From Bacillota bacterium (GTDB lineage Bacteria > Sysuimicrobiota > Sysuimicrobiia > Sysuimicrobiales > Segetimicrobiaceae): a stretch of 58,050 nucleotides of DNA. The notes under the pieces were generated by a model that worked only from the letters and a program-made list of their open reading frames with translations, ran no database searches and had not been told where the DNA came from. The translations under genes and the position numbers were made by a program. Where the stretch lies: positions 1-58,050 of the forward strand of contig JAJPIA010000102.1 in assembly GCA_021324975.1 (NCBI GenBank), read 5' to 3'. Each line of letters starts with the position of its first letter. Position 1 is the first letter of the stretch. Positions 10,183-51,428 of this stretch are shown here, one piece after another.

Positions 10183-11523
10183 TTACGTCGCCGGCCGCAT
10201 CCTGGGAGCCGCGGGGACCTCGTGCTCCTCGGCGATGTCCTCCTTGGAGCGGTCCGGCAGCAGTGCGGTGGCGATCAGGGTCAGCACCGCCGTGATGATC
10301 ATGTAGTTGCTGATCGACGCGGAGCTGCCGTACTTGTGGAGCAGATAGACCGCGATGAGCGGAGCGGGTCCGCCGGCGATAATCGACGCCAGCTGATACC
10401 CGAGCGACGCCCCGCTGTATCGGAGCCGGGTTGGAAAGCTCTCCGCGATCAACGCGGCCTGGGGCCCGTACTGCATGTCGTGCGGGATCAACGAGATGAC
10501 GATCGCGATGAACGCGAGCGCCGGCACTCGCGTGTCGAGGAGGCCGAAGTAGGGGTAGGCCCATACCAGCACCGCGAGCGCCCCGAGCATGTACATGCGT
10601 TTGCGGCCGATGACGTCGGAGAGATAGCCGAAGAACGGCACGCTCACGAGCGACACGAGCGCCGCCACGGTGACCGCGTTCACGAGGAGGCCGCGCTCGA
10701 GCTTGAGCGTCCCGGCGCCGTACGTGAAGACGAATGTCGTAAACAGGTAGAACGGCGCCTGCTCCGACAGGCGGAGCAGGGCGCTCAGGATGATCTCCCT
10801 TGGGTTGCGGCGGATCACTTCCATGACCGGCTGCCGCTCGATGCGGCGCTCGTTCAGGATGCGTTCGAACAGCGGCGTCTCCAAGATCCGGAGCCGGATG
10901 AAGAGGCCGATGGCCACGAGCACGATGCTCAGCAGAAACGGGATCCGCCATCCCCAGGCGAGGAATGAGGGGCTGCGGCTGAACACCGCCACGATGCCGT
11001 TGGAGAGGAGCAGGCCCGCCGGCACGCCGAATTGCGGCCAGCTCGCGATAAACCCGCGCTTCCACTTGTGGCCCCATTCCATGGAAAGCAGCACCGATCC
11101 GCCCCACTCGCCGCCGACCCCGAGGCCCTGGCAGATTCGGAGGATTGTCAGGAACACGGCGCCCCACGTCCCGATCGACGCGTAGCCGGGGATGATGCCG
11201 ACGAGGAACGTGGCGATGCCCATAAGCAGCAGCGTGATGATCAACGTCGCCTTCCGGCCGATGCGGTCCCCGTAGTGGCCGAAGATCGCGCCGCCAATCG
11301 GCCGGGCGATGAACCCCACGGTGTACGTGGCAAACGCCTCGAGCGCCCCCACGTAGGGATCGGATTTCGGGAAGAAGACCTTGGGAAATACGAGGGCCGC
11401 GGCGGTGCCGTACAGGAAGAAGTCGTACCACTCGATCGTGGTGCCGATTGTGCTGGCAACGAGCGCGCGCACCAACTGTGTGCGTTCCAGATCACTGCCG
11501 GCGGAGCTTGCGCTGTTTGCCAT
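10183..11523 (-). CDS. MFS transporter, metabolite:H+ symporter (MHS) type
   Basis: The 446-residue, 12-helix carrier shows MHS-subfamily features: ASTIGTTIEWYDFFLYGTAA in helix 1, the loop motif GHYGDRIGRKATLI, GLGVGGEWGGSVLL in helix 4 and a second GYLSDVIGRKRMYMLG loop. MHS proteins take up organic acids such as citrate, alpha-ketoglutarate or shikimate, or osmolytes, with protons. The ATG at 11523 follows a GGGAGGGG site; the frame upstream to 11712 is only an extension. It follows the glycerate 2-kinase gene on the same strand, so a hydroxy-acid substrate is plausible but inferred. Confidence 0.92.
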   Translation of the reverse strand: MANSASSAGSDLERTQLVRALVASTIGTTIEWYDFFLYGTAAALVFPKVFFPKSDPYVGALEAFATYTVGFIARPIGGAIFGHYGDRIGRKATLIITLLLMGIATFLVGIIPGYASIGTWGAVFLTILRICQGLGVGGEWGGSVLLSMEWGHKWKRGFIASWPQFGVPAGLLLSNGIVAVFSRSPSFLAWGWRIPFLLSIVLVAIGLFIRLRILETPLFERILNERRIERQPVMEVIRRNPREIILSALLRLSEQAPFYLFTTFVFTYGAGTLKLERGLLVNAVTVAALVSLVSVPFFGYLSDVIGRKRMYMLGALAVLVWAYPYFGLLDTRVPALAFIAIVISLIPHDMQYGPQAALIAESFPTRLRYSGASLGYQLASIIAGGPAPLIAVYLLHKYGSSASISNYMIITAVLTLIATALLPDRSKEDIAEEHEVPAAPRMRPAT

Positions 11524-24556: not shown

Positions 24557-24683
24557 GTCGCTCCCCGGAGGTATGTTCGTGTGCGTGGCCTAGAGTTCGG
24601 CGCCGGGGAGGACATTCCCGTTGCGGGCCCCGGCCGCGGGGCCCCGCGATACTCGCCGACTCACCATTCACCCGAACACACCA

Positions 24684-24712
24684 AGGCCGCCCCGGGGGAG
24701 TTGGGGCGGCCT
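24684..24712. terminator. Strong hairpin downstream of pstS
   Basis: AGGCCGCCCC and GGGGCGGCCT form a perfect 10-bp stem around a 9-base loop. It sits in the 216-base gap between the pstS stop and the RraA-like start, both on the minus strand, and most probably ends pstS transcription. No T-tract follows. Confidence 0.6.
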
Positions 24713-24772
24713 CGGCGTGCGCGAACGTCCCTTGATGCGGGCCGCGGGACGTCCGCGAACGGACGGGTGCTG

Positions 24773-29807: not shown

Positions 29808-30467
29808 ATGCCGACGCGGGACGCCTTCGATCGCGATCTCCGGCAACTCAGCGACGATCTCATCCGCCTCGGAACGCTGGTCGAGGATCAGGTGCGCCGG
29901 TCCATCGATGCGTTGCGCTCGCGCAGCGTCGAGCTGGCCCAGGAGATCATCACGTCAGACAACGCCGTCGATCAGCTGCACCTCGAGCTCGAGAACCGCT
30001 GCATGCAGCTCATGGCGACGCAGCAGCCCATGGCGAAGGACCTGCGCACCATTGCCGCGATCTGGGCAATGACCATCGACCTCGAGCGCATCGGCGACCA
30101 TGCCGAGGACATCGCGCGCACCGTCCGCCGGATGGCGCCGGAGCCGCCGATCAAACCGCTCATCGACATCCCGCGCATGGCGGATTTGATGCGCGAGATG
30201 CTTCGGGATGGGCTCGACGCGTTCGTGCGCCGCGACACGACGCTCGCCGAACGCATGGCCGCGGCCGACGACGCCGTGGATCACCTCTACAGTCAGGTGT
30301 TCCGGGAACTGCTCACCTATATGATCGAGGACCCCAAGAGCATCCAGCGGGCGACGCATCTGCTCATGGTGGCGCAGGCGTTGGAGCGCATGGCGGACCA
30401 CACCACGAATATCGCCGAGCGCGTGATCTACATGGTCACAGGCACGCTGCGGGAACTCAACGTGTGA
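29808..30467 (+). CDS. phoU: Phosphate signalling protein PhoU
   Basis: The 219-residue all-helical protein has the two PhoU repeats. The first contains IAAIWAMTIDLERIGDHAED, with the metal-binding E-x(3)-R-x-x-D pattern; the second contains MVAQALERMADHTTNIAERV. PhoU links the Pst transporter to the PhoR/PhoB system and limits phosphate uptake. The ATG at 29808 gives the normal length; the frame extends to 29733 with an Arg-rich stretch that is probably not translated. A second PhoU domain occurs in the fusion protein at 34592-36178. Confidence 0.93.
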   Translation: MPTRDAFDRDLRQLSDDLIRLGTLVEDQVRRSIDALRSRSVELAQEIITSDNAVDQLHLELENRCMQLMATQQPMAKDLRTIAAIWAMTIDLERIGDHAEDIARTVRRMAPEPPIKPLIDIPRMADLMREMLRDGLDAFVRRDTTLAERMAAADDAVDHLYSQVFRELLTYMIEDPKSIQRATHLLMVAQALERMADHTTNIAERVIYMVTGTLRELNV

Positions 30468-30506
30468 GGCCGGCGCCGGCCGCTCACGGCAGCGCCGCGG
30501 TCCGCG

Positions 30507-31403
30507 CTACCGAAACCAGCCCGCGCTCGCGCCGACGAGCAGGGCGGCGCCGAGGATGACCCGGTACCAGGCAAACACCCAGCTCGTGTGCCGCTCGAGA
30601 TACCGCAGGAGTCCCCAGATCGCGGCGTAGGACGCCGCGCTGCCGGAGAGCACGCCGATGGCGAGCAGCACCCACCCGTGCCCGCTCAGCCCAGCCTTGC
30701 GCAGCGTCCACAGCTCGAACAGCCCCGCCAGCACGATCGCCGGGACGCCGAGCAGAAACGAAAACCGGGCGGCCGTGGGACGCTCCATGCCGAGTCCCAG
30801 GCCCGCCGTCAACGTCGAGCCCGACCGTGACACGCCCGGGATGAGCGCAAACGCCTGCGCAATCCCGACGTACACACAATCCCGCAGCGTGAGCCGGTTC
30901 CACCCCCGCTTCCCTTCCGATCGCGGCTGGCCGTAGAGCTCGGCCATGGCGAGCAACGCACCCATCAGCACGCACGCCCAGGCCACGACGGCCAGGCCGC
31001 GAAGCGGCGAATTGCAGGCATTCAGCGTCTTGCGCAGCGCCAGCCCGGCGATGCCGATCGGGATCGTCCCGATGATGATGCCGGCCGCGATGCGCAGCGA
31101 GTGGTCCCGCGGCTCGCCGCGCCGGAGCGCGGCGAGCGCTTCCCCGGAGATCGCCACGATGTCCCGTCCAAAAAACGCCACGACCGCGAGCAGGCTCGCA
31201 AGCTGCATCGCGGCGGAAAACGCGGCCCCCGGATCCGGCCACCCGAACAGCGCCGGCACGATCCGCAGGTGCGCCGTGCTGCTGATGGGGAGAAGTTCCG
31301 TGATGCCCTGCACGATGCCCAACACGACCATCTTCCATGCGCCGAGCTGCACGAAGCTCAGGTTGATCGAGGTGCCGTCGCAGGGCGAGGTGCCCGGGGT
31401 CAT
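30507..31403 (-). CDS. uppP: Undecaprenyl-diphosphatase UppP (BacA)
   Basis: The 298-residue integral membrane enzyme recycles undecaprenyl diphosphate to the monophosphate carrier for cell-wall synthesis. The two active-site motifs are intact: GIVQGITELLPISSTAHL near the N-terminus and ALIPGVSRSGSTLTAGLGLG in the second half. It has 7-8 hydrophobic segments. The ATG at 31403 has no good ribosome binding site of its own but overlaps the stop of a 12-codon leader ORF (ATGA), which has one. An in-frame ATG at 31442 is a less likely alternative because its GGAGG is too close. Confidence 0.93.
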   Translation of the reverse strand: MTPGTSPCDGTSINLSFVQLGAWKMVVLGIVQGITELLPISSTAHLRIVPALFGWPDPGAAFSAAMQLASLLAVVAFFGRDIVAISGEALAALRRGEPRDHSLRIAAGIIIGTIPIGIAGLALRKTLNACNSPLRGLAVVAWACVLMGALLAMAELYGQPRSEGKRGWNRLTLRDCVYVGIAQAFALIPGVSRSGSTLTAGLGLGMERPTAARFSFLLGVPAIVLAGLFELWTLRKAGLSGHGWVLLAIGVLSGSAASYAAIWGLLRYLERHTSWVFAWYRVILGAALLVGASAGWFR

Positions 31404-31438
31404 CGTGGCGCAGCCCCGCGCGTGATGAACAGCCGCAT
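31400..31438 (-). CDS. Putative 12-codon leader peptide coupled to uppP
   Basis: The reading frame MRLFITRGAAPR has a GGAGGA site 4 bases ahead of its ATG, and its TGA overlaps the uppP start codon. It lies 56-63 bases after an extended -10 element, within the uppP leader. Such an arrangement is typical of translational coupling or a ribosome-sensing leader peptide. No conservation data are available here. Confidence 0.45.
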   Translation of the reverse strand: MRLFITRGAAPR

Positions 31439-31500
31439 CCATTCCTCCGTGGGCCGAAGTGCCGTCATCCGGTGAGGTGACGAGCGTGGCACCCGTGCAA

Positions 31501-31509
31501 AGTTTAGCA
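31501..31509 (-). promoter_or_regulatory. Extended -10 promoter of uppP
   Basis: TGCTAAACT on the minus strand fits TGnTATAAT with two mismatches. It lies 63 bases upstream of the leader-peptide ATG, with no gene between. Confidence 0.5.
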
Positions 31510-31521
31510 CATACCCAAACG

Positions 31522-31770
31522 CTATCCGCGGCCGATCTCGGCTTTGAGGTGGCGCCAGGCATCGCGCGCTTCCTCGATCGATCCCTCGTCCTCGATCGTC
31601 GAGACGTCGCCGGGATCGCGTCCCAGGACGATGGCGCGGAGCACCCGGCGCATGATCTTGCCGCTGCGCGTCTTCGGCACGAGACGAACGAAGTTCAGCT
31701 CGGCGATGACGGCGACGGGTCCGAGCTCGGCGCGCGCCGTCGCCAGGATCTCACCACGCAGTCGCCTCCC
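31522..31770 (-). pseudogene. C-terminal relic of an acetyl-CoA synthetase
   Basis: The minus strand reads [40 protein letters not shown] and [20 protein letters not shown], then a stop. This is the C-terminal domain of AMP-forming acetyl-CoA synthetase, including the catalytic lysine motif TRSGKIMRR. About 80 of roughly 650 residues remain. Just upstream the matching residues RELRARLRG fall in another frame. The main adenylation domain is absent from the window, so this is a deletion remnant. Confidence 0.8.
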
Positions 31771-31996
31771 CGTAGCCGCGCGCGCAGCTCACGGCACGCC
31801 CCGGCCCGCGCTTAGGGTACTTTGACCGGCCGCGGTTTCCCTCCCGGCCGGCGCGAGTCCGGTGACGCGCCGGCGCCGGCGGGCGGATCCGCAGCCGTCT
31901 GTCTTCGCGGCCGCCGAGGCCGGGCACGATTCACGGCCGGCTGAACTGTCTGCAAGGTATAGTGACCAGCGTGATACCGATGAGGGAGGCGCGCCG

Positions 31997-32311
31997 ATGG
32001 CGATCACCGTGTTCATCCGTTACCGGCTGGACCCGTTCAAGCGGAGCGCGTTTGAGGAATACGCGAGGCGCTGGCTCACCATCATCCCGGCGTGCGGCGG
32101 CACGCTCGTGGGTTACTGGATGCCGCACGAAGGCACCAACAACATCGCCTACGGGCTGATCTCGTTCGAGAGCCTGGCGGCCTACGAGGCGTACCGCGAG
32201 CGGCTCAAGCGCGACCCGGACGGCGTCGCGAACTTCCGGTCCGCGGAGGAGCAGCGGCTGATCCTGGCCGAGGAGCGGACCTTCTTGCGGCCCGTGACGC
32301 GCGGCGGCTGA
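31997..32311 (+). CDS. NIPSNAP-family protein
   Basis: The 104-residue protein starts [20 protein letters not shown] and has the dimeric ferredoxin-like pattern of NIPSNAP domains: [39 protein letters not shown] and [19 protein letters not shown]. Family function is poorly defined. The ATG at 31997 follows GGGAGGC. The acetyl-CoA synthetase relic is upstream on the other strand. Confidence 0.8.
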
Positions 32312-32421
32312 TCTCGCCAAGAACACAGACGGTCCTCCGGCCGGGCCCTCGACGCGCACGACTAGCCGCCCGCTCCCCTGGGCACAACGGGCAGTGAGGC
32401 CGTGCCGCCGGGGGAGTAGGG

Positions 32422-32700
32422 ATGGCCACGACGATTCCTTCTCGGACAGCGTTCATGTTCTACTATGCCGCGAACTCGACCATCAGCGCGCCGGACGCCG
32501 TTCGGGAGTGGTTTTCGACCAGTCAAAAGCTGAAGCCCCACGGCCACATCCGGGTCAAGGGCCGCTGGGGCGATGTCTATCAGGTGGGAAAGCTGATGAG
32601 CGAGCTCGACCGGACCTGGCCGTCGGTGGTCCATGACTGGCTGCGAACTCGGAGCGGCATGCCGGAGGCGCTGGTCGTCGTCTGGACGCCCGAAGGATAG
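32422..32700 (+). CDS. Hypothetical protein, 92 residues
   Basis: No family was recognised. The product starts MATTIPSRTAFMFYYAANST, has no signal peptide or membrane segment, and contains a compact hydrophilic region (HIRVKGRWGDVYQVGKLMSE) and a Trp-rich C-terminal part (RTWPSVVHDWLRTRSGMPEA). The ATG follows GGGGGAG. It ends 48 bases before the PHO-box-like array of the PHP/amphi-Trp locus, in the same direction. It may be an independent gene. Confidence 0.5.
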   Translation: MATTIPSRTAFMFYYAANSTISAPDAVREWFSTSQKLKPHGHIRVKGRWGDVYQVGKLMSELDRTWPSVVHDWLRTRSGMPEALVVVWTPEG

Positions 32701-32748
32701 ATAACGGATAGATCGCGCGCCCCATCACATCACGATTCATAACCTTGC

Positions 32749-32803
32749 GTTAACAGTTTCTTTGCCTTCGGTTTTGATTCGCATCTTGCGAGGTTAAACA
32801 ACG
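32749..32803 (+). promoter_or_regulatory. PHO-box-like 11-bp repeats upstream of the PHP/amphi-Trp locus
   Basis: Five consecutive 11-base units begin GTTAAC (32749), CTTTGC (32760), GTTTTG (32771), CATCTT (32782) and GTTAAA (32793). The first and last match the arrays at the pst genes best; the middle ones keep TT or a near match. A candidate -10 (TAGAGT, 32809-32814) follows. The surrounding DNA is A+T-rich for this window. Confidence 0.5.
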
Positions 32804-32931
32804 GTGGATAGAGTTGACCCGGAGGCATGAGAACGCTCGTGTGGACGGCAACGAATTCGGCCCAAAACGTACCTGTGCTCCAGTCGGGACGGACGCCGCA
32901 CACTCGTAGCATCGCCGGGGGAGACGCCACG

Positions 32932-33759
32932 ATGAAGCGGATCGACCTGCATACGCATGCGAAGCTCTCGAAGACCTTTCCGTTCGCTCCTCGCGCGGTG
33001 TGGCAATTCATCGCGCGGTCCAAGCGCCTGGGGCTCGACGGCGTCGCCCTGGTGGAGCACTTGCATGCCGTGGACTACTGGGGCATCCACGAAGCGCTCC
33101 GCCGCGAGTTTCGCTACAGGGATGCGGACGGCGTCTATGAGGGGCCCGATGGGTTCCGGCTCCTCAGCGGTGCCGAGCTCAGCATCCTGGAGGGTTGCGA
33201 CCTCATCGTGCTGGGCACCGTGAGGCAGCTTCAGGCGCTCGACGCCGCGCTCGCCGAGCCGCCCACGGGCGGCTACCGGCCCCCGTTCGACGAAGCGATC
33301 GCCGCGGTGCGGCGGGTTGGCGGGTTCGTGGCCGGGGCCCACATGTTCCGGCCGGGCAAGGAGCTGGCGAAAGTCGGCCTGCCCCGGCTGGCGGCGCTCG
33401 ACGCGCTCGAGTTCAACGGCAAGGACTTCACGATGGACGATCGAGTGAGCGCCGAAGCGACGCGACTCGGCCTTCCTATCATGGGCGGCAGCGATGCGCA
33501 CTTCTGGGCCCAGGTGGGGATCAAGGCGACGGTGTTGCCGATCGGCGAGATCACGCAGGCGTCCGTGGCGTCCGCGATTCGCGACGGCCTCGCATCCGTC
33601 GCGAGCCAGCCGTACGGGCCGCTGGCCGTTCAGATCAGCGGCGCGTACAAGCGGATCGCAAAAACGCAGCGAGCGCGCGCCGCTCTTCCGGGGGCGCATG
33701 CCCGTTCATCCAGCCGCGCCGTTGCGGGCCTCTCGGAGGTGGCCGGTCAGGCGCGATAG
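32932..33759 (+). CDS. PHP-domain metal-dependent phosphoesterase-like protein
   Basis: The 275-residue protein begins MKRIDLHTHAKLSKTFPF with the PHP motif H7-x-H9. It continues with GLDGVALVEHLHAVDYWG, LLSGAELSILEGCDLIVLG, VAGAHMFRPGKEL, ALEFNGKDF and the final motif LPIMGGSDAHFWAQVG. These supply a complete-looking set of His, Glu and Asp metal ligands. PHP proteins hydrolyse phosphate esters or nucleotides. The ATG at 32932 is preferred over 32827 because the conserved strand starts there and GGGGGAG precedes it. The last 45 residues are Arg/Ala-rich. It is the first gene after a PHO-box-like array. Confidence 0.85.
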   Translation: MKRIDLHTHAKLSKTFPFAPRAVWQFIARSKRLGLDGVALVEHLHAVDYWGIHEALRREFRYRDADGVYEGPDGFRLLSGAELSILEGCDLIVLGTVRQLQALDAALAEPPTGGYRPPFDEAIAAVRRVGGFVAGAHMFRPGKELAKVGLPRLAALDALEFNGKDFTMDDRVSAEATRLGLPIMGGSDAHFWAQVGIKATVLPIGEITQASVASAIRDGLASVASQPYGPLAVQISGAYKRIAKTQRARAALPGAHARSSSRAVAGLSEVAGQAR

Positions 33760-33878
33760 CACAATGCGAGGGAGCGGCCCCCTGCGGCGGCCCGCCGGCT
33801 CGGAGGAAGGGGCGCACCGGCGCGTTAAGCGAGGACGGGGGCGCCCGAGCCCCACGACGCATCCGGGAGAGTGACCGC

Positions 33879-34121
33879 ATGGCGAGACCGCTCAAGGTGA
33901 CGGCCGCGATGCCCTGCGCGGAAGCCGCGGAATTGATGACTCAACTCTCATTGGGATTGATGCACGGTACGCTCATCATCCGCTCGAGCGAGGAACGGCA
34001 CGCCTATCACCTCGGACAGGTGATTCGCCTGGAGATTCGCGCCGAGGAAGACGGCACCGAGGGGTCCATGCACATCGGGCTCCACTGGCGCGTCCCGCTG
34101 AGCGTCACAACCTCGTCCTGA
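33879..34121 (+). CDS. Small amphi-Trp-like domain protein (divergent copy)
   Basis: The 80-residue product has AAELMTQLSLGLMHGTLIIR, then an alternating strand pattern ending IGLHWRVPL. This mirrors the amphi-Trp domain of the next gene: a helix with G-L-x(2)-G, strands, and an invariant-type Trp after alternating hydrophobic residues. It is shorter and more divergent than a standard member. The ATG follows GGGAGAG. The neighbour at 34155 begins 33 bases after its stop. Confidence 0.6.
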   Translation: MARPLKVTAAMPCAEAAELMTQLSLGLMHGTLIIRSSEERHAYHLGQVIRLEIRAEEDGTEGSMHIGLHWRVPLSVTTSS

Positions 34122-34154
34122 TCGCCGGCGTCGAAGCCCGAAAGGGGGGAGGAC

Positions 34155-34487
34155 ATGGCCAAGCACGAGGACAAGGGTGGCAAGTTCGAGTTTTCGGCCA
34201 CGCTCGAGGCGTCCCAGGTCGCGGATTACCTCGTGAGGATCGCGGACGGGCTGCGGCGTGGCGTGATCGGCCTGACCGCCGGGGAGCGCGCCGTCCGGCT
34301 CGAGCCTACCGCGATGCTCGCATTCGAGATCGAAGCCGAGGGCAAGCCGGAGAAGTCCGCGGGCAGCATCGCCATGGAGCTCTCGTGGAAGCCGGAGTAC
34401 GCGTCGGCGGCGGAGGCCCTCGAGATTACCGTCGATCCCCGGGAAGAAGGGGGCCGGCAGCCCGCGGGCACAACGACACACCAGTAA
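34155..34487 (+). CDS. Amphi-Trp domain-containing protein
   Basis: The 110-residue protein matches the amphi-Trp domain: KFEFSATLEASQVADYLVRI, ADGLRRGVIGLTAGERAVRL, FEIEAEGKPEKSAGSIAMEL and the Trp in ELSWKPEY. From memory of NCBI family descriptions, such proteins occur in gene cassettes with ATP-grasp enzymes and HprK-related kinases; their function is unknown. Being small and acidic, it could be the substrate or carrier modified by the enzymes encoded downstream. That is an inference. The ATG follows a GGGGGGAGG site. The C-terminal 20 residues are disordered. Confidence 0.8.
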   Translation: MAKHEDKGGKFEFSATLEASQVADYLVRIADGLRRGVIGLTAGERAVRLEPTAMLAFEIEAEGKPEKSAGSIAMELSWKPEYASAAEALEITVDPREEGGRQPAGTTTHQ

Positions 34488-34543
34488 GCGTTCACGGTCC
34501 TGCGCATTCTCCCGAGACGCACCACCCGTGGACCGGCCGGACG

Positions 34544-34581
34544 CCGCGCGTACCCGGCCGGAGACGGCCGGGTACGCGCGG
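34544..34581 (+). promoter_or_regulatory. 17-bp perfect hairpin with GAGA loop just before the PhoU-kinase start codon
   Basis: CCGCGCGTACCCGGCCG is followed by GAGA and then its exact complement, ending at 34581. GAGA is a stable GNRA tetraloop. The base of the stem touches the GGAAGG ribosome binding site (34581-34586) of the gene starting at 34592. It could block ribosome access, stabilise a processed mRNA or terminate partly between the amphi-Trp and kinase genes. The long GC stem without T-tract argues against simple termination. Confidence 0.65.
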
Positions 34582-34591
34582 GAAGGCCATC

Positions 34592-36178
34592 ATGGCCGCC
34601 GACGCCCTGCTGACCGGCCTGCCGGGCGAGGTCACCAAACTTGGGCAGCTCGCGCTCGACCAGCTCGAACGGGCGTTGCGGTGCTACGCTTGTCGCGACC
34701 TCGCGCTGGCCGAGGAGATCATCGAGCGCGACGACGCGGTCGACAATCTCAACCTGGAACTCGAGGAACGCTGCTTCGCCCTCGCCGCCACGGGCGGCTT
34801 GTCCGCGGACGGGCTCCGCACGGTCCGCGCCACCGTCAAGATCGCACTCAATCTCGAGCGGATCGGCGACGCGGGGACGCACATCGCGAAGCGCGTCCGG
34901 CTACTGGTCCGCGAAGGGATTCCCCGCATCGAGTTTACCATTGATGAGCTCGAGCGGTGCGCGGTGACCGCCGTGACCGAGGTGGTCGAGGCGTTCAACG
35001 CGCGCGACCTCGAAATGGCCCGCCGCGCGTGCCTGCGCGAGTCGGAACTGGACGCGCACTACGTCCGCTACCTCGGCGAGGCGCGCCAGCGCATCCAAAC
35101 CGACCCCGTCGCCGTCCCGTACGTGCTGCACTGCCTCGCCGTCATGAAATATCTGGAGAAAGTGGCCGACTACGTGCTCAATATCGGCGAGCAGGTCATC
35201 TTCCTCCTGACCCGGCGTCGCTTGAAGTTTTCACAGTATCAGCAACTCGACCTGCTGCTCCCCGAGGGCACACCGGGCGACGTGGAGTTTCGCCCGTACT
35301 GGGATGGGGTGAGCGGCGCGGTGGTGGCGCGGATCTCCGGGCGCGAGGGCGACGTCGTCTATAAGGAAGGGACCCGGCGCAAGATCCAGGAGGAGACCGA
35401 AAAGCTCCGGGCGTGGGAGCAGATCGCCGGCGGGCTCACGCCCCGCATTCTAGGATCGGTCACGGTGGGGGACCGGCAGGCGCTGCTGCGCGAGTTCGTC
35501 GACAGCGCGCTCCTCTCGGAGCTGTATCTGTCCGACGCTCCGCGCCACGCCAAACTGCTCGCGACCGAGCGAGTGCTCGCGGCTGTGCGCCGGGTGTGGG
35601 ACAGCACGCTCGTCCAGACACCCCCGACCGTCGATTACGTCGCGCAGATTCTGCGACGTCTGCCGGAGGCGTTTGCGTTGCACCCCGAGCTGCGGCCCCA
35701 TCTGGAGCAGCAGATCGCGCTGCCCGACGGCTCCGTATTGTTCGCCGACCTGCTGAGGCGCGCGGAGGCCGTGGAGCCGACCTTGGTGCCGCCGTTCTCC
35801 GTCTGGCTCCACGGCGACTTCAACGCCAGCAACGTACTCTACAACGAGCGGACGGGGCAGATCAAGTTCATCGACGTGCATCGCTCGCGGCTCGGCGACT
35901 ACCTCCAGGACGTGAGCGTGTTGTCGCTCTCTATGGAGCGCCGGCCCGACCTCACGCCGGCGGTCCGGGAGGACGTTGCCGCGATCAACGCGGTCGTCGA
36001 ACGATTCGCCCGGGAGTTCGGCGCCGCGCACGGGGACCACGCATTCGAGCGCCGGCTGCTCCTCAGCATCGCGCGGTCATGCGTGACATCGGTGCGGGTG
36101 GTCATCGACCCCGATCATGCCTGGGTCTTGCTGCGGCGGGGCGTAGCGTTGATGCAGCAGACGGTGGCCGCGTCGTGA
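34592..36178 (+). CDS. PhoU domain fused to aminoglycoside-phosphotransferase-like kinase
   Basis: The 528-residue protein joins two known folds. Residues 1 to about 213 form a full PhoU domain with two repeats (IALNLERIGDAGTHIAKRVR and VMKYLEKVADYVLNIGEQVI). Residues about 225-528 form an APH-type kinase: a candidate ATP lysine K258 in DVVYKEGT, the catalytic loop H407-G-D409-FNASN414 and the metal-binding D428 in KFIDVHRSRLGDYLQDVS. All expected catalytic residues are present, so small-molecule or protein kinase activity is plausible, with PhoU perhaps as a phosphate-status sensor or membrane adaptor. Its stop overlaps the GTG of the ATP-grasp gene. Confidence 0.88.
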   Translation: MAADALLTGLPGEVTKLGQLALDQLERALRCYACRDLALAEEIIERDDAVDNLNLELEERCFALAATGGLSADGLRTVRATVKIALNLERIGDAGTHIAKRVRLLVREGIPRIEFTIDELERCAVTAVTEVVEAFNARDLEMARRACLRESELDAHYVRYLGEARQRIQTDPVAVPYVLHCLAVMKYLEKVADYVLNIGEQVIFLLTRRRLKFSQYQQLDLLLPEGTPGDVEFRPYWDGVSGAVVARISGREGDVVYKEGTRRKIQEETEKLRAWEQIAGGLTPRILGSVTVGDRQALLREFVDSALLSELYLSDAPRHAKLLATERVLAAVRRVWDSTLVQTPPTVDYVAQILRRLPEAFALHPELRPHLEQQIALPDGSVLFADLLRRAEAVEPTLVPPFSVWLHGDFNASNVLYNERTGQIKFIDVHRSRLGDYLQDVSVLSLSMERRPDLTPAVREDVAAINAVVERFAREFGAAHGDHAFERRLLLSIARSCVTSVRVVIDPDHAWVLLRRGVALMQQTVAAS

Positions 36179-37104
36179 CGCTGCGCGTCGGCGTCGCCGG
36201 CATTCCGGGGGCGTGGTCCACCGAGCATCTCAGGCGGGCCTTGGAGCAGTGCGGCTGCGACACGCTCGTGTTTTCGGCGGCGGACTGCGTCGTCGAGATG
36301 CGGAGCGGGGCGGTGCGGCACGCGGGCGTCGATCTCGGCGAGCTCGACGCCGTGGTCGTCAAAAAGTTGGGCTCCACGACGGACCCGATGGCCCCGAGCC
36401 GGGTGCACCTGCTGATCCAGCTCGAAGCGCGAGGCGTTCGCGTCTTCAGCCCGGCTGCGGCGATCGCGGAAGTTCAGGACCGCTACCGCATGACGGGGCG
36501 CCTCAGCCACGCGGGCATTCCCCTGCCCGCGACGATCGTGACGGAGAGCGTCGCGGAGGCGGCGGCGGCGATCCGGCGGTGGGGGCGTGCGGTCGTCAAG
36601 CCGCTGTTCACGTCCAAGGGCAGCGGCATGTTGATGCTCGCCGGCGGCGCGCCTCTCCGTCTGGCGCTCCGGCGCTGGCAGCGGCAGTGGCGCATGCCGT
36701 TCTACGTGCAGGAGTATGTGCCGCACGCCGGGCGGGATATCGGCGTGGTCGTCTTGGCGCGGGAGGTGCTCGGGGCCTACTATCGGGTGGCGCGCCGCGA
36801 CGCCTGGCTGACGACCACCGCGGCCGGCGGCCACTACGAAGCGTGTCCGGTCACCCCGGTGATGCGGGAGCTCGCCGTCCGCGCGGCCGACGTGTTCGGG
36901 TTGACGTTCACGTGCGTGGATCTGGTGGAAGGACCGCACGGCTATCTCGCATACGAGGTGAGCGCGTTCGGCAGCTTCGGTGGCTTGTGGCGCACGCAGG
37001 GCATCGACGCCGCACAGCGTTACGCCGAGCACGTCGTTCACACGCTCCGCGAACGGACGCCCGATGAGCGAACTGGCATCGATCATCCGCGCGTACCGGC
37101 CTAG
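36175..37104 (+). CDS. RimK-like ATP-grasp enzyme of the amphi-Trp/HprK cassette
   Basis: The 309-residue protein shows an ATP-grasp layout: LRVGVAGIPGAWSTEHLRRA, LDAVVVKKLGSTTDP, FSPAAAIAEVQDRYRMTGRL, VVKPLFTSKGSGMLMLAGG, FYVQEYVPHAGRDIGVVVLA and YLAYEVSAFGSFGGLWRT, with the usual Lys, Glu and Asn/Ser-type ligands around ATP and Mg. RimK-like enzymes ligate amino acids or small amines to carboxylates. It starts with GTG over the stop of the PhoU-kinase gene and overlaps the HprK-like gene by 41 bases. The target is unknown; the amphi-Trp proteins are candidates. Confidence 0.85.
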   Translation: MTLRVGVAGIPGAWSTEHLRRALEQCGCDTLVFSAADCVVEMRSGAVRHAGVDLGELDAVVVKKLGSTTDPMAPSRVHLLIQLEARGVRVFSPAAAIAEVQDRYRMTGRLSHAGIPLPATIVTESVAEAAAAIRRWGRAVVKPLFTSKGSGMLMLAGGAPLRLALRRWQRQWRMPFYVQEYVPHAGRDIGVVVLAREVLGAYYRVARRDAWLTTTAAGGHYEACPVTPVMRELAVRAADVFGLTFTCVDLVEGPHGYLAYEVSAFGSFGGLWRTQGIDAAQRYAEHVVHTLRERTPDERTGIDHPRVPA

Positions 37105-38131
37105 CGCGACCGTCGCGCTGGAGATTGCCGGGGTCCCCCTGCGCGTGCACACCAACGCGCCGGCCGTGCATGAGCGTCTGCGCCGGTATTTCGGCGCCTA
37201 TGTTGGCGCAGACGCCGGCGACCCCGCCGCCGACGTGTTCCTGTTCTGCGGGACGCCCATCTACGACGAGGCCCGGATGCAGGACGTGCCGCGACGCTCC
37301 CGCGCCGACCGGGTGAAGGAGGCGTTCTACGACGCCGCCGACGCTCGGGTCGTCCTCAAGCGCCGGACCGGCGTGGTCATCTACGTGGCGGAGCCCGACC
37401 ACTACGTCGTAGGAGACTTGGAGACCAACTTCAACCAAGCCGTCAACATGGTGATGATGGTTCTTGCCAAGGCGCTGGTGCGCCGCGGCTACATCGTGCT
37501 GCACGCCTCCGCCATCCTCGGCGACGCCGGGGGCATCGCGTTTGCCTCGTCGTCCGGGGCCGGCAAGTCGACGCTCGCGCTCATGCTGCTCGAGCAGCAT
37601 CATCACCTGGTGAGCAACGATCGGCTCTTCCTGCGGCCGTCGCCGGACGGCGCGGAGATGGTGGGCATCCCCAAGCAGCCGCGGGTCAATCCCGGGACGC
37701 TCCTCCGCGTGTCCCGGCTCACCCGCCTGCTGCCCGCGGACGAGGTGAGCCGCTACCGGCCGATGCCGCCCGAGCAACTGTGGCGCCTGGAACGCAAGCA
37801 CGATGTCGACGTGGAAGCCATCTACGGGCCGGGCACTGTCCGGCTTCAAGGCATGCTGCGCGCCGTCTTTCTGCTGCGCTGGAGCTTCGACAGCCGAGGG
37901 TGGAGCGTTCACACGATCCCGGCGGCGGAGCGCCCCGCCGCGCTCGGGCAGGTTGTCAAGAGCCTCGGCGTGTACGACCTTGCCCCGCCCGATCCGGCGC
38001 TGGTGGAGTCCACGCTGGCCGCGGTGTGCGAGCGGATCTCAGTCTACGAGGTCTCCGGCCGCGCGGACCTGGAGCGGCTGGCGTCGCTCGTGCTCGCCGG
38101 CCCGGCGCTGTCCCCGGCGACCGGCCCCTAG
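37064..38131 (+). CDS. HprK-related kinase
   Basis: The 355-residue protein resembles HPr kinase in its nucleotide-binding core: YIVLHASAILGDAGGIAFAS, the Walker A loop SSSGAGKSTLAL with K168, and LVSNDRLFLRPSPDG, where the Asp is the likely catalytic or metal residue. The N-terminal 130 residues are not HprK-like. It matches the HprK-related kinases that accompany ATP-grasp and amphi-Trp genes. No HPr or PTS gene is nearby, so the substrate is probably not HPr. The ATG at 37064 lies inside the end of the ATP-grasp gene, implying coupling. Confidence 0.85.
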   Translation: MSELASIIRAYRPSATVALEIAGVPLRVHTNAPAVHERLRRYFGAYVGADAGDPAADVFLFCGTPIYDEARMQDVPRRSRADRVKEAFYDAADARVVLKRRTGVVIYVAEPDHYVVGDLETNFNQAVNMVMMVLAKALVRRGYIVLHASAILGDAGGIAFASSSGAGKSTLALMLLEQHHHLVSNDRLFLRPSPDGAEMVGIPKQPRVNPGTLLRVSRLTRLLPADEVSRYRPMPPEQLWRLERKHDVDVEAIYGPGTVRLQGMLRAVFLLRWSFDSRGWSVHTIPAAERPAALGQVVKSLGVYDLAPPDPALVESTLAAVCERISVYEVSGRADLERLASLVLAGPALSPATGP

Positions 38132-38142
38132 ACCGCGGCGCC

Positions 38143-38156
38143 GCCCGGCGCCGGGC
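38143..38156. terminator. Perfect GC palindrome between convergent genes
   Basis: GCCCGGCGCCGGGC is a perfect 14-base palindrome 12 bases after the HprK-related kinase stop, facing the LOG-family gene. It may help to terminate both transcripts; no T-tract follows. Confidence 0.35.
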
Positions 38157-38202
38157 GTGGCGGCCCGGGGGCAGCGTCCCGCGGCGGGGGCGGGGAGTCC
38201 CG

Positions 38203-38790
38203 TCAGGCGCCCGATTCCGGCGGCGCGCCGGGCCACTTGGGCGGGGGCGGCACGTATGCGTCGAGGCGGCGCACGAGGGACGCCGCGTCGTCCTCGATGA
38301 TCAGTGCCTGGCGGTAGGCTTCGTCGAGGAACCCGTCTGCGACCATGCGATCGATCAGGGCGAGGAGCGGCCGGAAGAAGCCACCAACATCGAGCAACCC
38401 CACGGGCTTGTGATGCAGCCCCAGCTGTCCCCAGGTCCACATCTCGAAGAATTCGTCCAGGGTGCCGGATCCGCCGGGGAGCGCCACGAAGCCGTCGGCC
38501 AGCCCGGCCATCTCCGCCTTACGCGCGTGCATCGATCCCACGACGCGCAGCTCGCGAAGGCCCGCGTGCGCGATCTCGCGGTCCATGAGCGCTCGCGGGA
38601 TGACGCCGATGACGTCGCCCCCGACCTGGAGTGCGGCATCCGCCAGCGCTCCCATGAGGCCGACACGGGCGCCGCCGTAGACGAGGCCGATCCCGCGGGC
38701 GGCGAGGAGCCGTCCGAGTTCCTGGGCAGCTTCACGATAGCGGGCATCCCGTCCCGGGCTCGACGCGCAGAAGACGCACAGACGACGCAT
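38203..38790 (-). CDS. TIGR00730/LOG family protein (nucleotide 5'-monophosphate nucleosidase-like)
   Basis: The 195-residue Rossmann-fold protein has the LOG motifs GLVYGGARVGLMGALADAAL, MHARKAEMAGLADGFVALPG and PGGSGTLDEFFEMWTWGQLG. Members release adenine from cytokinin nucleotides or cleave other nucleotide 5'-monophosphates. All signature residues (R in HARK and the PGGxGTxxE box) are intact. The ATG at 38790 matches the usual start RRLCVFCASSPG. It is divergent from agmatinase. Confidence 0.92.
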   Translation of the reverse strand: MRRLCVFCASSPGRDARYREAAQELGRLLAARGIGLVYGGARVGLMGALADAALQVGGDVIGVIPRALMDREIAHAGLRELRVVGSMHARKAEMAGLADGFVALPGGSGTLDEFFEMWTWGQLGLHHKPVGLLDVGGFFRPLLALIDRMVADGFLDEAYRQALIIEDDAASLVRRLDAYVPPPPKWPGAPPESGA

Positions 38791-38935
38791 ACGCGGGTGT
38801 GATTCGGGGCCGGCGCGCGGCGATCCCGTGCCCGGCGCCGGAGGGAATCCTCGGACCGGAGCCGAACGACGGGTCCGGCGCCTGCACGCCGCCCGCCGTT
38901 CCGGCTGAGACAACCCAAAGACGAGGACGATTGCC

Positions 38936-39883
38936 GTGACGACCCGCTTTGAGCCCCCCGACGCGTTTCAGTCGCCGCGCTTCGCGCAACTCCCGACGTT
39001 CATGCGGCTGCCGCACGTCCGCGACCCAGAGGGCCTGGACGTGGCGATCGTCGGGGTCCCGTTCGACGGCGGCACCAGCTACCGCTCGGGCGCCCGCTTT
39101 GGGCCGCGGGAGATCCGCGTGCATTCCGCCCTGATCCGGCCGTATCACCCGGTGCTGCGGGCGTCGCCGTTCGCCCGCCGCAAGGTCGCGGATTGCGGCG
39201 ACGTCGATACCAATCCCATGGACATCCTGGACACGTACGGGCGGATCGAGCGGGCCGTGGGAGCGATCCTGGCGGCCGGCGCCGTGCCCGCGTGCATCGG
39301 CGGCGATCACTCCATCTCGCTCGCCATCTTGCGCGCGGTCGCGCGCGCGCATGGCCCGGTCGCGTTCGTGCACTTCGACAGCCACCAGGACATGTGGGAC
39401 GAGTATTTTGGCAACCGGTACTTCCACGGGACGCCGTTCCGGCGGGCGCTGGAGGAAGGTCTCTACGATCCCAAGGCCACGGTGCAGCTCGGCATCCGCG
39501 GCCCGGTGTACGGCCCCGAGGACTTCGCGTTCGGGGAGACGCACGGGGTGACGGTGGTGCGCGCCGAGGAGCTCCACCGGCGCGGCACCGACGCGGCGCT
39601 GGAGCCCGTCCGGCGGCTTGCCGGGCGCAAGGTATACGTGTCGTTCGATATCGACGCCGTGGACCCCGCGTTCGCGCCCGGCACAGGGACGCCGGAGGTG
39701 GGCGGCCTCACAAGCGCGCAGGCGCTCGAGCTGCTGCGCGGGCTCGCGGGACTCGATATCGTCGCGTTCGACCTCGTGGAGGTCGCGCCCCCGTACGACC
39801 ACGCCGGCCTCACCGCGATGCTGGCCGCCAACGTGCTGTTCGAGCTGCTCTCGGTCGTCTCGCTGCGCGCACCGGTTCGCTAG
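38936..39883 (+). CDS. speB: Agmatinase (ureohydrolase family)
   Basis: The 315-residue enzyme belongs to the arginase/agmatinase family and would hydrolyse agmatine or another guanidino compound to urea and an amine. Manganese-binding segments are complete: ACIGGDHSISLAILRAVA, VHFDSHQDMWDEYFG (DSHQD in place of the usual DAHxD) and VSFDIDAVDPAFAPGTGTPE. It starts with GTG. The assignment to agmatine rather than guanidinobutyrate or similar is by overall likeness only. It ends just before repeat copy 2. Confidence 0.88.
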   Translation: MTTRFEPPDAFQSPRFAQLPTFMRLPHVRDPEGLDVAIVGVPFDGGTSYRSGARFGPREIRVHSALIRPYHPVLRASPFARRKVADCGDVDTNPMDILDTYGRIERAVGAILAAGAVPACIGGDHSISLAILRAVARAHGPVAFVHFDSHQDMWDEYFGNRYFHGTPFRRALEEGLYDPKATVQLGIRGPVYGPEDFAFGETHGVTVVRAEELHRRGTDAALEPVRRLAGRKVYVSFDIDAVDPAFAPGTGTPEVGGLTSAQALELLRGLAGLDIVAFDLVEVAPPYDHAGLTAMLAANVLFELLSVVSLRAPVR

Positions 39884-39896
39884 TGAGTCACCGCAC

Positions 39897-40133
39897 TACT
39901 TCCGCAAGGGCCGGTGCCGGACGTACCTGCCCTCCGCGCTACTAGGCCTACGGCGTGAGCCAAAGCGCCCGACGCCTAACCAATGCCGTGCCTTCGTTTC
40001 GTCCTCAGCGCAAGCAAAGTGATGCCACGCAGCTGAAAGCATCGCGGGCGTCGAACGCCCCGCGGCCTACGGCGTGGGCCAGGACGTCCGGCCAGGCCCG
40101 CCCGGCGCGTCTACCCCCGTCGCACATACGAGA
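39897..40133 (+). repeat. Intergenic repeat, copy 2
   Basis: This about 235-base unit fills the gap from 39884 to 40203 between agmatinase and the convergent creatininase-family gene; nothing else is seen there. It shares TTCCGCAAGGG, GGTGCCGG, ACCTG-CCTCCGC, GACGCCT and GATGCCACGCA-type blocks with copy 3, then the hairpin GCGGGCGTCGAACGCC and CCTACGGCGTGGGCCAGGAC, then TCTACCCCCGTCGCACATAC. The block GCCTACGGCGTGAGCCA occurs once more inside it at about 39947. Confidence 0.8.
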
Positions 40134-44790: not shown

Positions 44791-46062
44791 CTACTTGGAC
44801 TTCGCGATGGCCGATTGCCAGGCCGTCGCCGCCTCGTCGAGCGCCTGCTTGACGGGCACCTTGCCACTCACGGTGTTTTGGAACGTCGTCTTGAACAGAT
44901 CAAACAGCGTTCCTGTGTCGGGGAGCGCCGGGAGCACGATGTTGGCGGCCGTGTCCTGGTTTGCAAACTGCGGGATGTACCGGAGCATCGGGTCGGTGCT
45001 GCCATTGAGCGACGTCATCGCGGCGTGGGTCGCCCAGGGGAGGCTGATCGCCTTCGTCATAGTGACCGCGACCGTGGGGGAGTACAGATACTCCAAAAAC
45101 TTCCACGCCGCGTCCTTGTTCTGCGACTTGGCGCTCATCCCCACGCCGCTGCAGCTCCACAGATATCCGCCCGTCTTTGCGCGCCACGCCGGCGCGTACG
45201 CGAGCTTGATCTTCGGGTCGATCTGCTTGGACTTGGACCAGATGAACGGGCCGTCGATGATGCTCGCCACCTGCCCGCTCGCGATGTACTCGAGCATCCG
45301 CGCCTGATCCTCACCGAACGATCCGGGCACGACAAGCCCCATCTGGTAGAAGTTCTTCCACCACGTCATCGCCGCGACGCCCTGCGGGGAGTTGAAGACC
45401 GCCCGGCCGCTGGCGTCCAGAAACTGGCCGCCCTCCTGCGCCAGCCGGAAGCCGAAGTACCGCGTCAGCGCGAAGCCTCCGTCGGCGAGCGGCATGCTCA
45501 TTCCGTATTTGTTGGCGCCGGAATTGCGCAGCTTCTTCTCGACCTGGATGAACTCGTCCCAGTTCGTCGGGGGCCGGAGACCGGCGGCGGCAAACTGATC
45601 GACGTTGTACGCGAACTGGTACGGGATCATGTACAGGCAGAACGACAGCGTCCGGCCGTTGATCTTGCGCCGCGCCGTCGGGAGGAGGTTGTCCGCGAAG
45701 TCTTTGTTCTTTGCGAGCCACGGGTCCAGGTCTTCAACGTAGCCGAGCTTGTCGAGGCCGGGCAGCCAGCTTCCTTCCACGCCGAACAGATCGTAGGTTT
45801 CGCCGCCCGCCGCCGCCGCGTCCAGTTTGCCTGACATCTGCGGATACGGCGTATCGACGACGGTGATTTTGATGTCGGGGTTGGCTTTCTCGAACCCGGC
45901 GATGAGGTTGTTGAAGTTGTCGGGTCCCCACTCGTGGACCCACCATTCCATCCATTTGATCTCAACCGGGGAGCCTGCGGCATTGGCGAGTGGCGCGACC
46001 GTGAACGCAAGCAAGACAACAACCGACAGTACCGCTACCCTGCACGACGGCCTAGCCCGCAT
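44791..46062 (-). CDS. Sugar ABC transporter substrate-binding protein, family 1
   Basis: The 423-residue extracytoplasmic protein has a signal peptide (VAVLSVVVLLAFTVAPLANA) and family 1 features: IKWMEWWVHEWGPDNFNNLI, ANPDIKITVVDTPYPQMSGK, LDAAAAGGETYDLFGVEGSW and AAWKFLEYLYSPTVAVTMTK. The ATG at 46062 follows GGGAGG with 8-base spacing and is better than the GTG at 46071. Transcription probably starts from the promoter at 46152-46180, which overlaps the LacI operator. A sugar or sugar-like ligand is inferred from family and from the LacI, DegT and Gfo/Idh genes opposite. Confidence 0.93.
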   Translation of the reverse strand: MRARPSCRVAVLSVVVLLAFTVAPLANAAGSPVEIKWMEWWVHEWGPDNFNNLIAGFEKANPDIKITVVDTPYPQMSGKLDAAAAGGETYDLFGVEGSWLPGLDKLGYVEDLDPWLAKNKDFADNLLPTARRKINGRTLSFCLYMIPYQFAYNVDQFAAAGLRPPTNWDEFIQVEKKLRNSGANKYGMSMPLADGGFALTRYFGFRLAQEGGQFLDASGRAVFNSPQGVAAMTWWKNFYQMGLVVPGSFGEDQARMLEYIASGQVASIIDGPFIWSKSKQIDPKIKLAYAPAWRAKTGGYLWSCSGVGMSAKSQNKDAAWKFLEYLYSPTVAVTMTKAISLPWATHAAMTSLNGSTDPMLRYIPQFANQDTAANIVLPALPDTGTLFDLFKTTFQNTVSGKVPVKQALDEAATAWQSAIAKSK

Positions 46063-46151
46063 GACGGACACCTCCCTACGGTAGAAGGAGTCTCGTGTTC
46101 GTGCCTGCCGGAAAGCTCGGTGCCGCTATAGCGATTTGAGGTTGTAACGGC

Positions 46152-46180
46152 AGTCTACACGGGTGCTGCAAGCTTGTCAA
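46152..46180 (-). promoter_or_regulatory. Promoter of the sugar ABC operon
   Basis: On the minus strand a perfect -35 TTGACA (46180-46175) is followed after exactly 17 bases by TAGACT (46157-46152). The -35 lies inside the palindromic operator, so repressor binding would exclude RNA polymerase. Confidence 0.7.
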
Positions 46181-46193
46181 ATCGATTTGACAA
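46174..46193. promoter_or_regulatory. LacI-family operator, perfect 20-bp palindrome
   Basis: TTGTCAAATCGATTTGACAA is an exact inverted repeat with the central CG usual for LacI-family sites. It carries TTGACA on both strands and lies between the divergent lacI-type and sugar ABC genes. A half-site (TCAAATCG on the minus strand) recurs about 40 bases away, near 46132-46139. Confidence 0.8.
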
Positions 46194-46215
46194 ACTCAAA
46201 CCGCTTCGATTACAT
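46187..46215 (+). promoter_or_regulatory. Putative promoter of the LacI-family regulator gene
   Basis: The other TTGACA of the operator (46187-46192) is followed after 17 bases by TTACAT (46210-46215), a weak -10. If used, the regulator represses itself and the transporter from one site. Confidence 0.45.
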
Positions 46216-46246
46216 AAAGCGTGTGTGATCTGGAGGCGTCTTTATA

Positions 46247-50078: not shown

Positions 50079-51428
50079 TTAGGCCGTCGCGCCCGGGCCC
50101 GGCAGCCACTTCCCCCAACCAGGGTCGCCTTCGGGTCGCCCGTCCCTCGCGACGAGGCGGCCTCTCACAAACGTCATGACGGCCGCGCCGACCACGCGGC
50201 GGCCGGCGTACGGCGTCCAACCCGCCTTGCTCAACACGTCCGCATCGGCGAGCACGCGTGACCGGGCCGGATCGACGAGGGTGATGTCGGCGTCGGCCCC
50301 GGGCGCGAGCGTGCCCTTGCGAGGAAAGAGCCCGTAGATCCTGGCCGGTTGCTCACACAGCACCTCCACCACGCGCTCCATCGCGATCCTGCCCTCGTGC
50401 GCGGCGTGCAGCAGCAGCGCGAGCGTGGTCTCCACGCCGGGCAGCCCGAAGTGGCACGTCCAGATGTCGCCCTCGAGCTTCTGGCCGCGCGTGGAGGGCG
50501 CGTGGTCGGTGCTGATGTGGGTGATCGCTCCGGCGGCGAGCCGCCGCCACATCGCGTCGGCATCGGCCGCATCGCGCAGCCGAGCGGGCGGCGTAAACTT
50601 GCGAAACGGTCCGTGCGTCAACACCTCGTTCTCCGTCAGGTAGAAGTACTGCGGGCAACTCTCCACCCACACGGGCGCCCCGAGGGCCCGCTCGCGCGCC
50701 ACCAGGTCGACCACCGGCGGATGGCTGGTGTGCGCGACGACGGTCCGCGCCCCGGTGAGGCGTGCGATCAGGGCCACCTCGGCGGCGGCCACGGCCTCGG
50801 CCTCCCGGCTCCGCCACTCGGGGATCACGCCGTAGTCGGTGCGGGCCGCGGCGCGCAGCGCGTGTTCGCGCTCCCGCGTGATCGCGTCGTCCTCGCAGTG
50901 CGCCAAAAACGTCGCGCCGACCCCTGCGCCGGCGCGAAAGCATTGGAGCAGGTCCCCGGCGAGCACCGCCGGCACCCCGTGCGTTTCGCAGGTGAACACC
51001 TTGAGGTATGCGGCGCCCGCGGCCCACAGCGCCGACAGCTCACCCATGCGATCGGGCCATACGTGCGCGCCCAGGGCGAAGTCGACGAACGACCGGCGCC
51101 TCAGGTGCGCGACCTTGCGGCGCAGCTCTCCGGCATCGCGGACGGGCGCGCCGTGCGTGTGCTCGATGATGGTCGTCACGCCGCCGGCGGCGGCCGCCGC
51201 GCTGCCGGTCGGGAAATCCTCGCGTGCCACGTCACCGGGATCCATGAAGTGGACGTGGCTGTCAACCACGCCCGGGAAGGCCAGCAGGCCGCCCGCGTCG
51301 ATGACGCGGGCGGCCTGCGCGTCGAGCCGCCCCACCGCGGCGACCTCGCCGTCCTGAACGTGAAGATCTGCGGCGAACCGTCCGCGCGGCGTCACCAGCA
51401 CCGCGCCGCGGATCGTCAGGTCAAGCAC
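50079..51428 (-). CDS. Dihydroorotase/allantoinase-type amidohydrolase
   Basis: The 449-residue cyclic amidohydrolase has the metal motif VVDSHVHFMDPGDVAREDFP, the Lys expected to be carbamylated in AAYLKVFTCETHG, FLAHCEDDAITRER, TVVAHTSHPPVVDLVA and THISTDHAPSTRGQKLEGDI. It resembles allantoinases and dihydropyrimidinase-like enzymes more than pyrimidine-biosynthetic dihydroorotases, since no pyr genes are near. It starts with GTG and overlaps the alcohol dehydrogenase stop by 8 bases. It may act on a ureide or hydantoin imported by the Liv-type system upstream. Confidence 0.88.
   Translation of the reverse strand: MLDLTIRGAVLVTPRGRFAADLHVQDGEVAAVGRLDAQAARVIDAGGLLAFPGVVDSHVHFMDPGDVAREDFPTGSAAAAAGGVTTIIEHTHGAPVRDAGELRRKVAHLRRRSFVDFALGAHVWPDRMGELSALWAAGAAYLKVFTCETHGVPAVLAGDLLQCFRAGAGVGATFLAHCEDDAITREREHALRAAARTDYGVIPEWRSREAEAVAAAEVALIARLTGARTVVAHTSHPPVVDLVARERALGAPVWVESCPQYFYLTENEVLTHGPFRKFTPPARLRDAADADAMWRRLAAGAITHISTDHAPSTRGQKLEGDIWTCHFGLPGVETTLALLLHAAHEGRIAMERVVEVLCEQPARIYGLFPRKGTLAPGADADITLVDPARSRVLADADVLSKAGWTPYAGRRVVGAAVMTFVRGRLVARDGRPEGDPGWGKWLPGPGATA

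Follow-up and report, generated by a model that had tools for sequence, protein, structure and literature searches.

Introduction

Of 34 upstream-stabilised gene pairs in Escherichia coli, 26 have their end at a stable hairpin that lacks a uridine tract (PMC5927463; see also PMC13289151), and the structured transcript ends of the G+C-rich Streptomyces clavuligerus comprise 353 U-less and 182 U-rich cases (PMC8269248). Perfect hairpins can be produced by template switching during replication (PMC8794818).

The hairpin described in this study lies in the window, by which we mean the whole stretch of 58,050 nucleotides that was analysed. It resembles the malE-malF and puf stem-loops and the hairpins linked to differential decay in E. 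coli in being stable, U-less and placed between upstream and downstream genes of an operon; it differs in that those hairpins were established by transcript ends and decay whereas ours is predicted from sequence, and in that conservation in relatives holds for 75-91% of the shared cases whereas our stem is decayed in the nearest one (PMC5927463). With the U-less ends of S. clavuligerus, including its I-shaped terminators, it shares a G+C-rich stem, a short loop, the lack of a U-tract, a high-G+C genome and a position after a gene, but it is predicted from sequence and sits closer to the following start codon than do most other long hairpins in its own genome (PMC8269248). Finally, it has in common with the template-switch stems a long perfect stem whose intact form is absent from the nearest relative, but the differences from that relative alternate across the arms and leave no footprint of a single switch (PMC8794818).

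Results

A perfect 17-bp hairpin between the amphi-Trp and PhoU-kinase genes

The hairpin occupies the 104-nt gap between two genes of the same direction, for which domain matches bear out the proposed identities, amphi-Trp followed by PhoU-kinase. The features of the locus are as follows.

33879 to 34121, plus strand: amphi-Trp-like protein (TIGR04354, below the curated cut-off)
34155 to 34487, plus strand: upstream gene, amphi-Trp domain protein (TIGR04354, PF20068)
34544 to 34560, plus strand: 5' arm of the 17-bp stem (sequence and fold)
34561 to 34564, plus strand: GAGA (GNRA) loop, GTGA in the aligned relative G002
34565 to 34581, plus strand: 3' arm, perfect complement of the 5' arm (sequence and fold)
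34581 to 34586, plus strand: GGAAGG, with the likely Shine-Dalgarno core AAGG at 34583-34586 (alignment with G002 and G001)
34592 to 36178, plus strand: downstream gene, PhoU domain fused to an APH-type phosphotransferase domain (kinase-like; domain matches)
36175 to 37104, plus strand: GAK-type ATP-grasp enzyme (best NCBIfam match TIGR04356)
37064 to 38131, plus strand: HprK-related kinase B (TIGR04355, above cut-off)

The tentative naming of this operon as GAK-type follows NCBIfam, in which TIGR04354 and TIGR04355 score above their cut-offs and TIGR04356, at 275.9 bits, falls short of its cut-off of 300. In the collection of papers that we searched, none has the term 'amphi-Trp domain' and none both 'GAK system' and 'ATP-grasp'. 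Judged from translations, a PHP-like gene, an amphi-Trp-like gene and the PhoU-APH fusion occur in the same order in contigs labelled Dehalococcoidales and Dehalococcoidia.

Sequence and fold agree with the original prediction on the anatomy of the element at 34544-34581: its 17 pairs are all Watson-Crick, and its loop is a GNRA tetraloop. The stem starts 56 nt after the amphi-Trp stop codon and ends, as claimed, at the GGAAGG motif, with which it shares G34581, and 10 bases (34582-34591) separate it from the ATG at 34592. The AAGG within this motif, whose spacing to the start codon is equal in the aligned G002 and G001, is the likely Shine-Dalgarno core, which would pair with the 16S tail. 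The 141-nt neighbourhood of the hairpin has a predicted folding energy of -76.8 kcal/mol (z -3.5), and the best 60-nt window at the hairpin reaches -51.3 (z -7.3, shuffles keeping dinucleotides).

The hairpin is an outlier in its genome

Our background sample of the window's own genome (G000) covered 944,785 of its 4,431,472 bases and held 21 perfect stems of at least 12 bp (loop 3-8), where base composition predicts 1.6; chance is thus no explanation for the hairpin, which is the longest of the 21. Its gap ranks third of 425 sampled G000 gaps by best 50-nt energy (3/425 at -43.0 or lower; the shuffles run with this ranking keep single-base composition only). With shuffles that keep dinucleotides, as used for the z-scores of individual gaps, its z is about -7, which ranks second among the 184 gaps of 70-160 nt that lie between same-direction genes of the three genomes compared. 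The hairpin is therefore a true outlier, with few equals. The claim that no other hairpin of such strength exists in the window was nevertheless too strong: a perfect 16-bp hairpin with a 3-nt loop lies at 51284-51318, inside the minus-strand coding sequence 50079-51428. It has an apparent counterpart of nearly the same sequence in G002 (14 bp, perfect; L102, 5074-5104).

Long hairpins cluster behind stop codons

Intergenic sequence makes up 14.0% of the G000 sample but holds 13 of the 21 stems of at least 12 bp. Across three genomes (the G000 sample, 213,098 bases of G001 and 204,165 bases of G002, with genes called, here as in our other gap surveys and stem comparisons, by a simple codon-usage caller of our own), such stems were found in 15/474 same-direction and 3/72 convergent gaps, and in 0/82 divergent gaps. 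Thirteen of the 15 same-direction stems start no more than 30 nt after the preceding stop codon, where uniform placement gives a mean of 7.9 (P 0.0016); without the hairpin at 34544-34581 the count is 13 of 14 (P 0.00025). U-tails are rare, following 3 of 108 sense-strand stems of at least 7 bp in same-direction gaps. The pattern agrees better with markers at the 3' ends of transcripts than with promoters, and we infer the function of this U-less gene-end class from position.

These observations underlie the reading that we tentatively favour, at somewhat less than an even chance: the hairpin would be a young, fast-turnover member of the genome's U-less, G+C-rich gene-end class, whose action on the amphi-Trp mRNA would at most be that of a 3' exonuclease barrier or a weak terminator. 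Processing or protection from exonucleases is kept as an option because long hairpins cluster behind stop codons. The gene for PNPase is present in the genome, and Rho is found as a fragment at a contig end. The hairpin has the stable, U-less and intergenic character of a gene-end hairpin or exonuclease barrier but not the closeness to the upstream stop codon that most long hairpins of this genome show; at 56 nt it is one of two exceptions among the 15 (the other lies at 57 nt), and its distance of 10 nt to the next start is unusually short, which makes it atypical for the class and speaks against this reading.

The stem has decayed in the closest relative

Our family search covered 12 genomes, five of which, the window's own included, encode a full-length kinase; the genus sample consists of three genomes only. 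In the closest relative, G002, the kinase is 92% identical and the gap has equal length, without indels, and 79% identity (82 of 104 positions, 22 differences). Here 10 of the 17 pairs are unchanged, two have become G-U and five are broken. Compensatory changes, which the original prediction had proposed to look for in relatives, were seen in 0 of the 17 pairs. The six uppermost base pairs are kept, as is a GNRA loop (GAGA to GTGA), which at such divergence is weak evidence of constraint.

These data bear on a close rival to the gene-end reading, which we regard as a substantial possibility if a less probable one: the hairpin may be a palindrome without function that arose by mutation, kept so far in G000 and decaying in its sister. 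One candidate process is template switching during replication, which can build a perfect stem in one event; as a source of perfect hairpins it has been published (PMC8794818). The stem has diverged to the same degree as its surroundings (8/34 stem positions differ from G002, against 14/70 in the rest of the gap), and the 12 pairs that remain match the mean of 12.1 left by eight random substitutions in a neutral simulation. This behaviour of a neutral sequence, together with the absence of any compensatory pair, favours a palindrome without function and counts against the gene-end reading. Conversely, the non-random placement of long hairpins, near stop codons and never in the 82 divergent gaps, argues against a mere mutational product.

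Functional repeats are recognisable at this evolutionary distance, as shown by controls that stay intact in G002 and from which the hairpin at 34544-34581 differs in its behaviour. An inverted repeat with the sequence that we take to be HrcA/CIRCE (L097, gap starting at 10438) retains 9 of its 10 pairs, with the arms kept and the loop changed, where the gap as a whole is 79% identical; a 12-bp stem and a 20-bp perfect palindrome are unchanged. The latter, TTGTCAAATCGATTTGACAA, lies at 46174-46193 of the window in the divergent gap 45952-46246 (86% identical in G002) and is a candidate operator. A separate G+C-rich stem of 10 bp with a 9-nt loop at 24684-24712, in the gap 24557-24772 between minus-strand genes, keeps 10 of 10 pairs in G002 with a changed loop. 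A survey of orthologous gaps covered 717,716 bases of G002; 116 of the 425 G000 gaps had a counterpart there, and 113 were scored. Stems of at least 12 bp with an orthologous gap in the other species allowed six comparisons, three from each side; in four the stem had decayed and in two it was essentially intact (12/12 and 12/13 pairs), both of the latter being one and the same hairpin. We count this turnover in favour of the gene-end reading.

The eight differences between the G000 and G002 stems, six transitions and two transversions, alternate by arm: they fall on the 5' side at pairs 4, 5, 8 and 10 and on the 3' side at pairs 4, 7, 9 and 11. This alternation led us to reject a single template switch by which a G002-like ancestral sequence became the perfect stem of the G000 lineage, a point against the mutational origin in that form. 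The perfect stem is probably ancestral to both genomes and decayed in G002, because point mutations seldom build a perfect stem. If so, G000 kept all 34 positions and G002 changed eight. This asymmetry is a suggestive hint of retention in G000 and no proof of selection, since the hairpin was chosen for being perfect in G000 and since G002 changes faster upstream, with 36 private changes against 17 in G000 over 605 sites of the two upstream genes; in the kinase gene the counts are 58 and 59 over 1578 sites.

Other relatives carry different stems or none

A quite different idea is that the gaps of amphi-Trp/PhoU-kinase operons need a strong hairpin to set the ratio of amphi-Trp protein to enzyme, and that each lineage re-makes it with a new sequence and at a new place, so that the function would persist even though the individual element is replaced. 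We consider this unlikely. The cases that would illustrate it are the 17-bp stem before the kinase gene in G000, an unrelated stem in the same gap of the second congener, G001, and a stem between the amphi-Trp genes of G004. In G001 (kinase 80% identical), the stem has 14 pairs, one of them G-U, and a 10-nt loop; its centre lies about 17 nt further upstream, it cannot be aligned with ours, and its z is about -3.6. We rejected the shared position of the two hairpins as a sign of function, as z-scores of -3.6 or lower are reached by the best window of 21/184 same-direction gaps of 70-160 nt, and of 5/28 in G001, a base rate of 11-18%. Among more distant family members, the amphi-Trp/kinase gaps of G004 and G003 contain nothing outstanding (z -1.8 and -1.3). 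The gap of L058 measures only 19 nt; that of L059 is partly masked and unreadable. The strong G004 stem lies between the two amphi-Trp genes, shortly after the stop codon of the first (L006, about 1038-1074; z -4.3).

Close relatives with the same gene order but without the stem had been named as the observation that would refute a regulatory role, and this is largely what we see: the stem is decayed in G002, different in G001 and without a comparable counterpart in G003 and G004, and the gap of L058 has only 19 nt. Of the signs expected of a conserved cis-regulatory RNA, neither compensation nor pairing retained beyond the neutral level was found in G002, and no RNA family match in the window.

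The stem is not predicted to mask the ribosome binding site

The original prediction envisaged that the hairpin could set the ratio of substrates to enzymes by attenuation, mRNA processing or translational control. Under translational or attenuation control, the stem would block or free the ribosome binding site of the PhoU-kinase gene or end transcription conditionally; we judge such control to be quite improbable. It draws on the position of the stem end 10 nt before the ATG, which the footprint of an initiating ribosome is expected to cover, and on the identity in G000 and G002 of both the segment 34526-34538 and the ribosome-site region, whose mutual pairing, possible in the predicted fold, would enclose the hairpin. 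A small helix touching the kinase start (GGCCA/UGGCC) is likewise predicted in both genomes. However, in a partition-function model the openness of positions -10 to +3 is 0.50 with the stem and 0.51 with the stem forbidden, and both values lie above the predicted median of 0.36 for 250 genes from the same gene caller, on which grounds masking by the stem was rejected. No alternative conserved fold was found, and the stem itself is unconserved in G002. As for attenuation, the hairpin has the G+C-rich stem of an intrinsic (Rho-independent) terminator but no U-tract, being followed directly by GAAGGCCATCAT, and the terminator prediction called no site at this position.

A 38-bp inverted repeat upstream of a gene could also be a DNA operator, bound by the regulator of a promoter before the kinase gene, but we hold this to be very improbable and found no support for it, since the region 30000-40000 has no sigma-70-like site, the genome has no second copy (a search matched the locus on its two strands and nothing else), stems of at least 12 bp are absent from the divergent gaps, where promoters lie, and operator-like inverted repeats remain intact in G002 whereas this hairpin decays. 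A repetitive, REP-like palindrome was rejected on the same single-copy result, and membership of an Rfam family on the lack of any match in the window at gathering scores.

Discussion

Our analysis upheld the anatomy set out in the original prediction and mostly contradicted the regulation built upon it, given the uncompensated decay of the stem in a sister genome, the missing U-tract and the lack of predicted masking. The hairpin is most likely lineage-specific and not a conserved operon switch. If it acts as a gene-end hairpin, the reading that we tentatively prefer, the amphi-Trp-kinase transcript would be cut or ended downstream, and 3' exonucleases such as PNPase would stall at the stem, so that the amphi-Trp part of the mRNA might be longer-lived. 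A small contribution of the stem to termination is also possible.

If the hairpins of these operons were instead re-made in each lineage, the operon would become a test of whether stoichiometry can be kept by hairpins without a kept sequence. Taken alone, the hairpin matters little, as an unconserved member of a scattered class. What it does illustrate is that, in a G+C-rich genome, being the strongest intergenic hairpin of its window does not keep a hairpin from being young and in decay, and that a sister species should be compared before such a hairpin is named a regulator.
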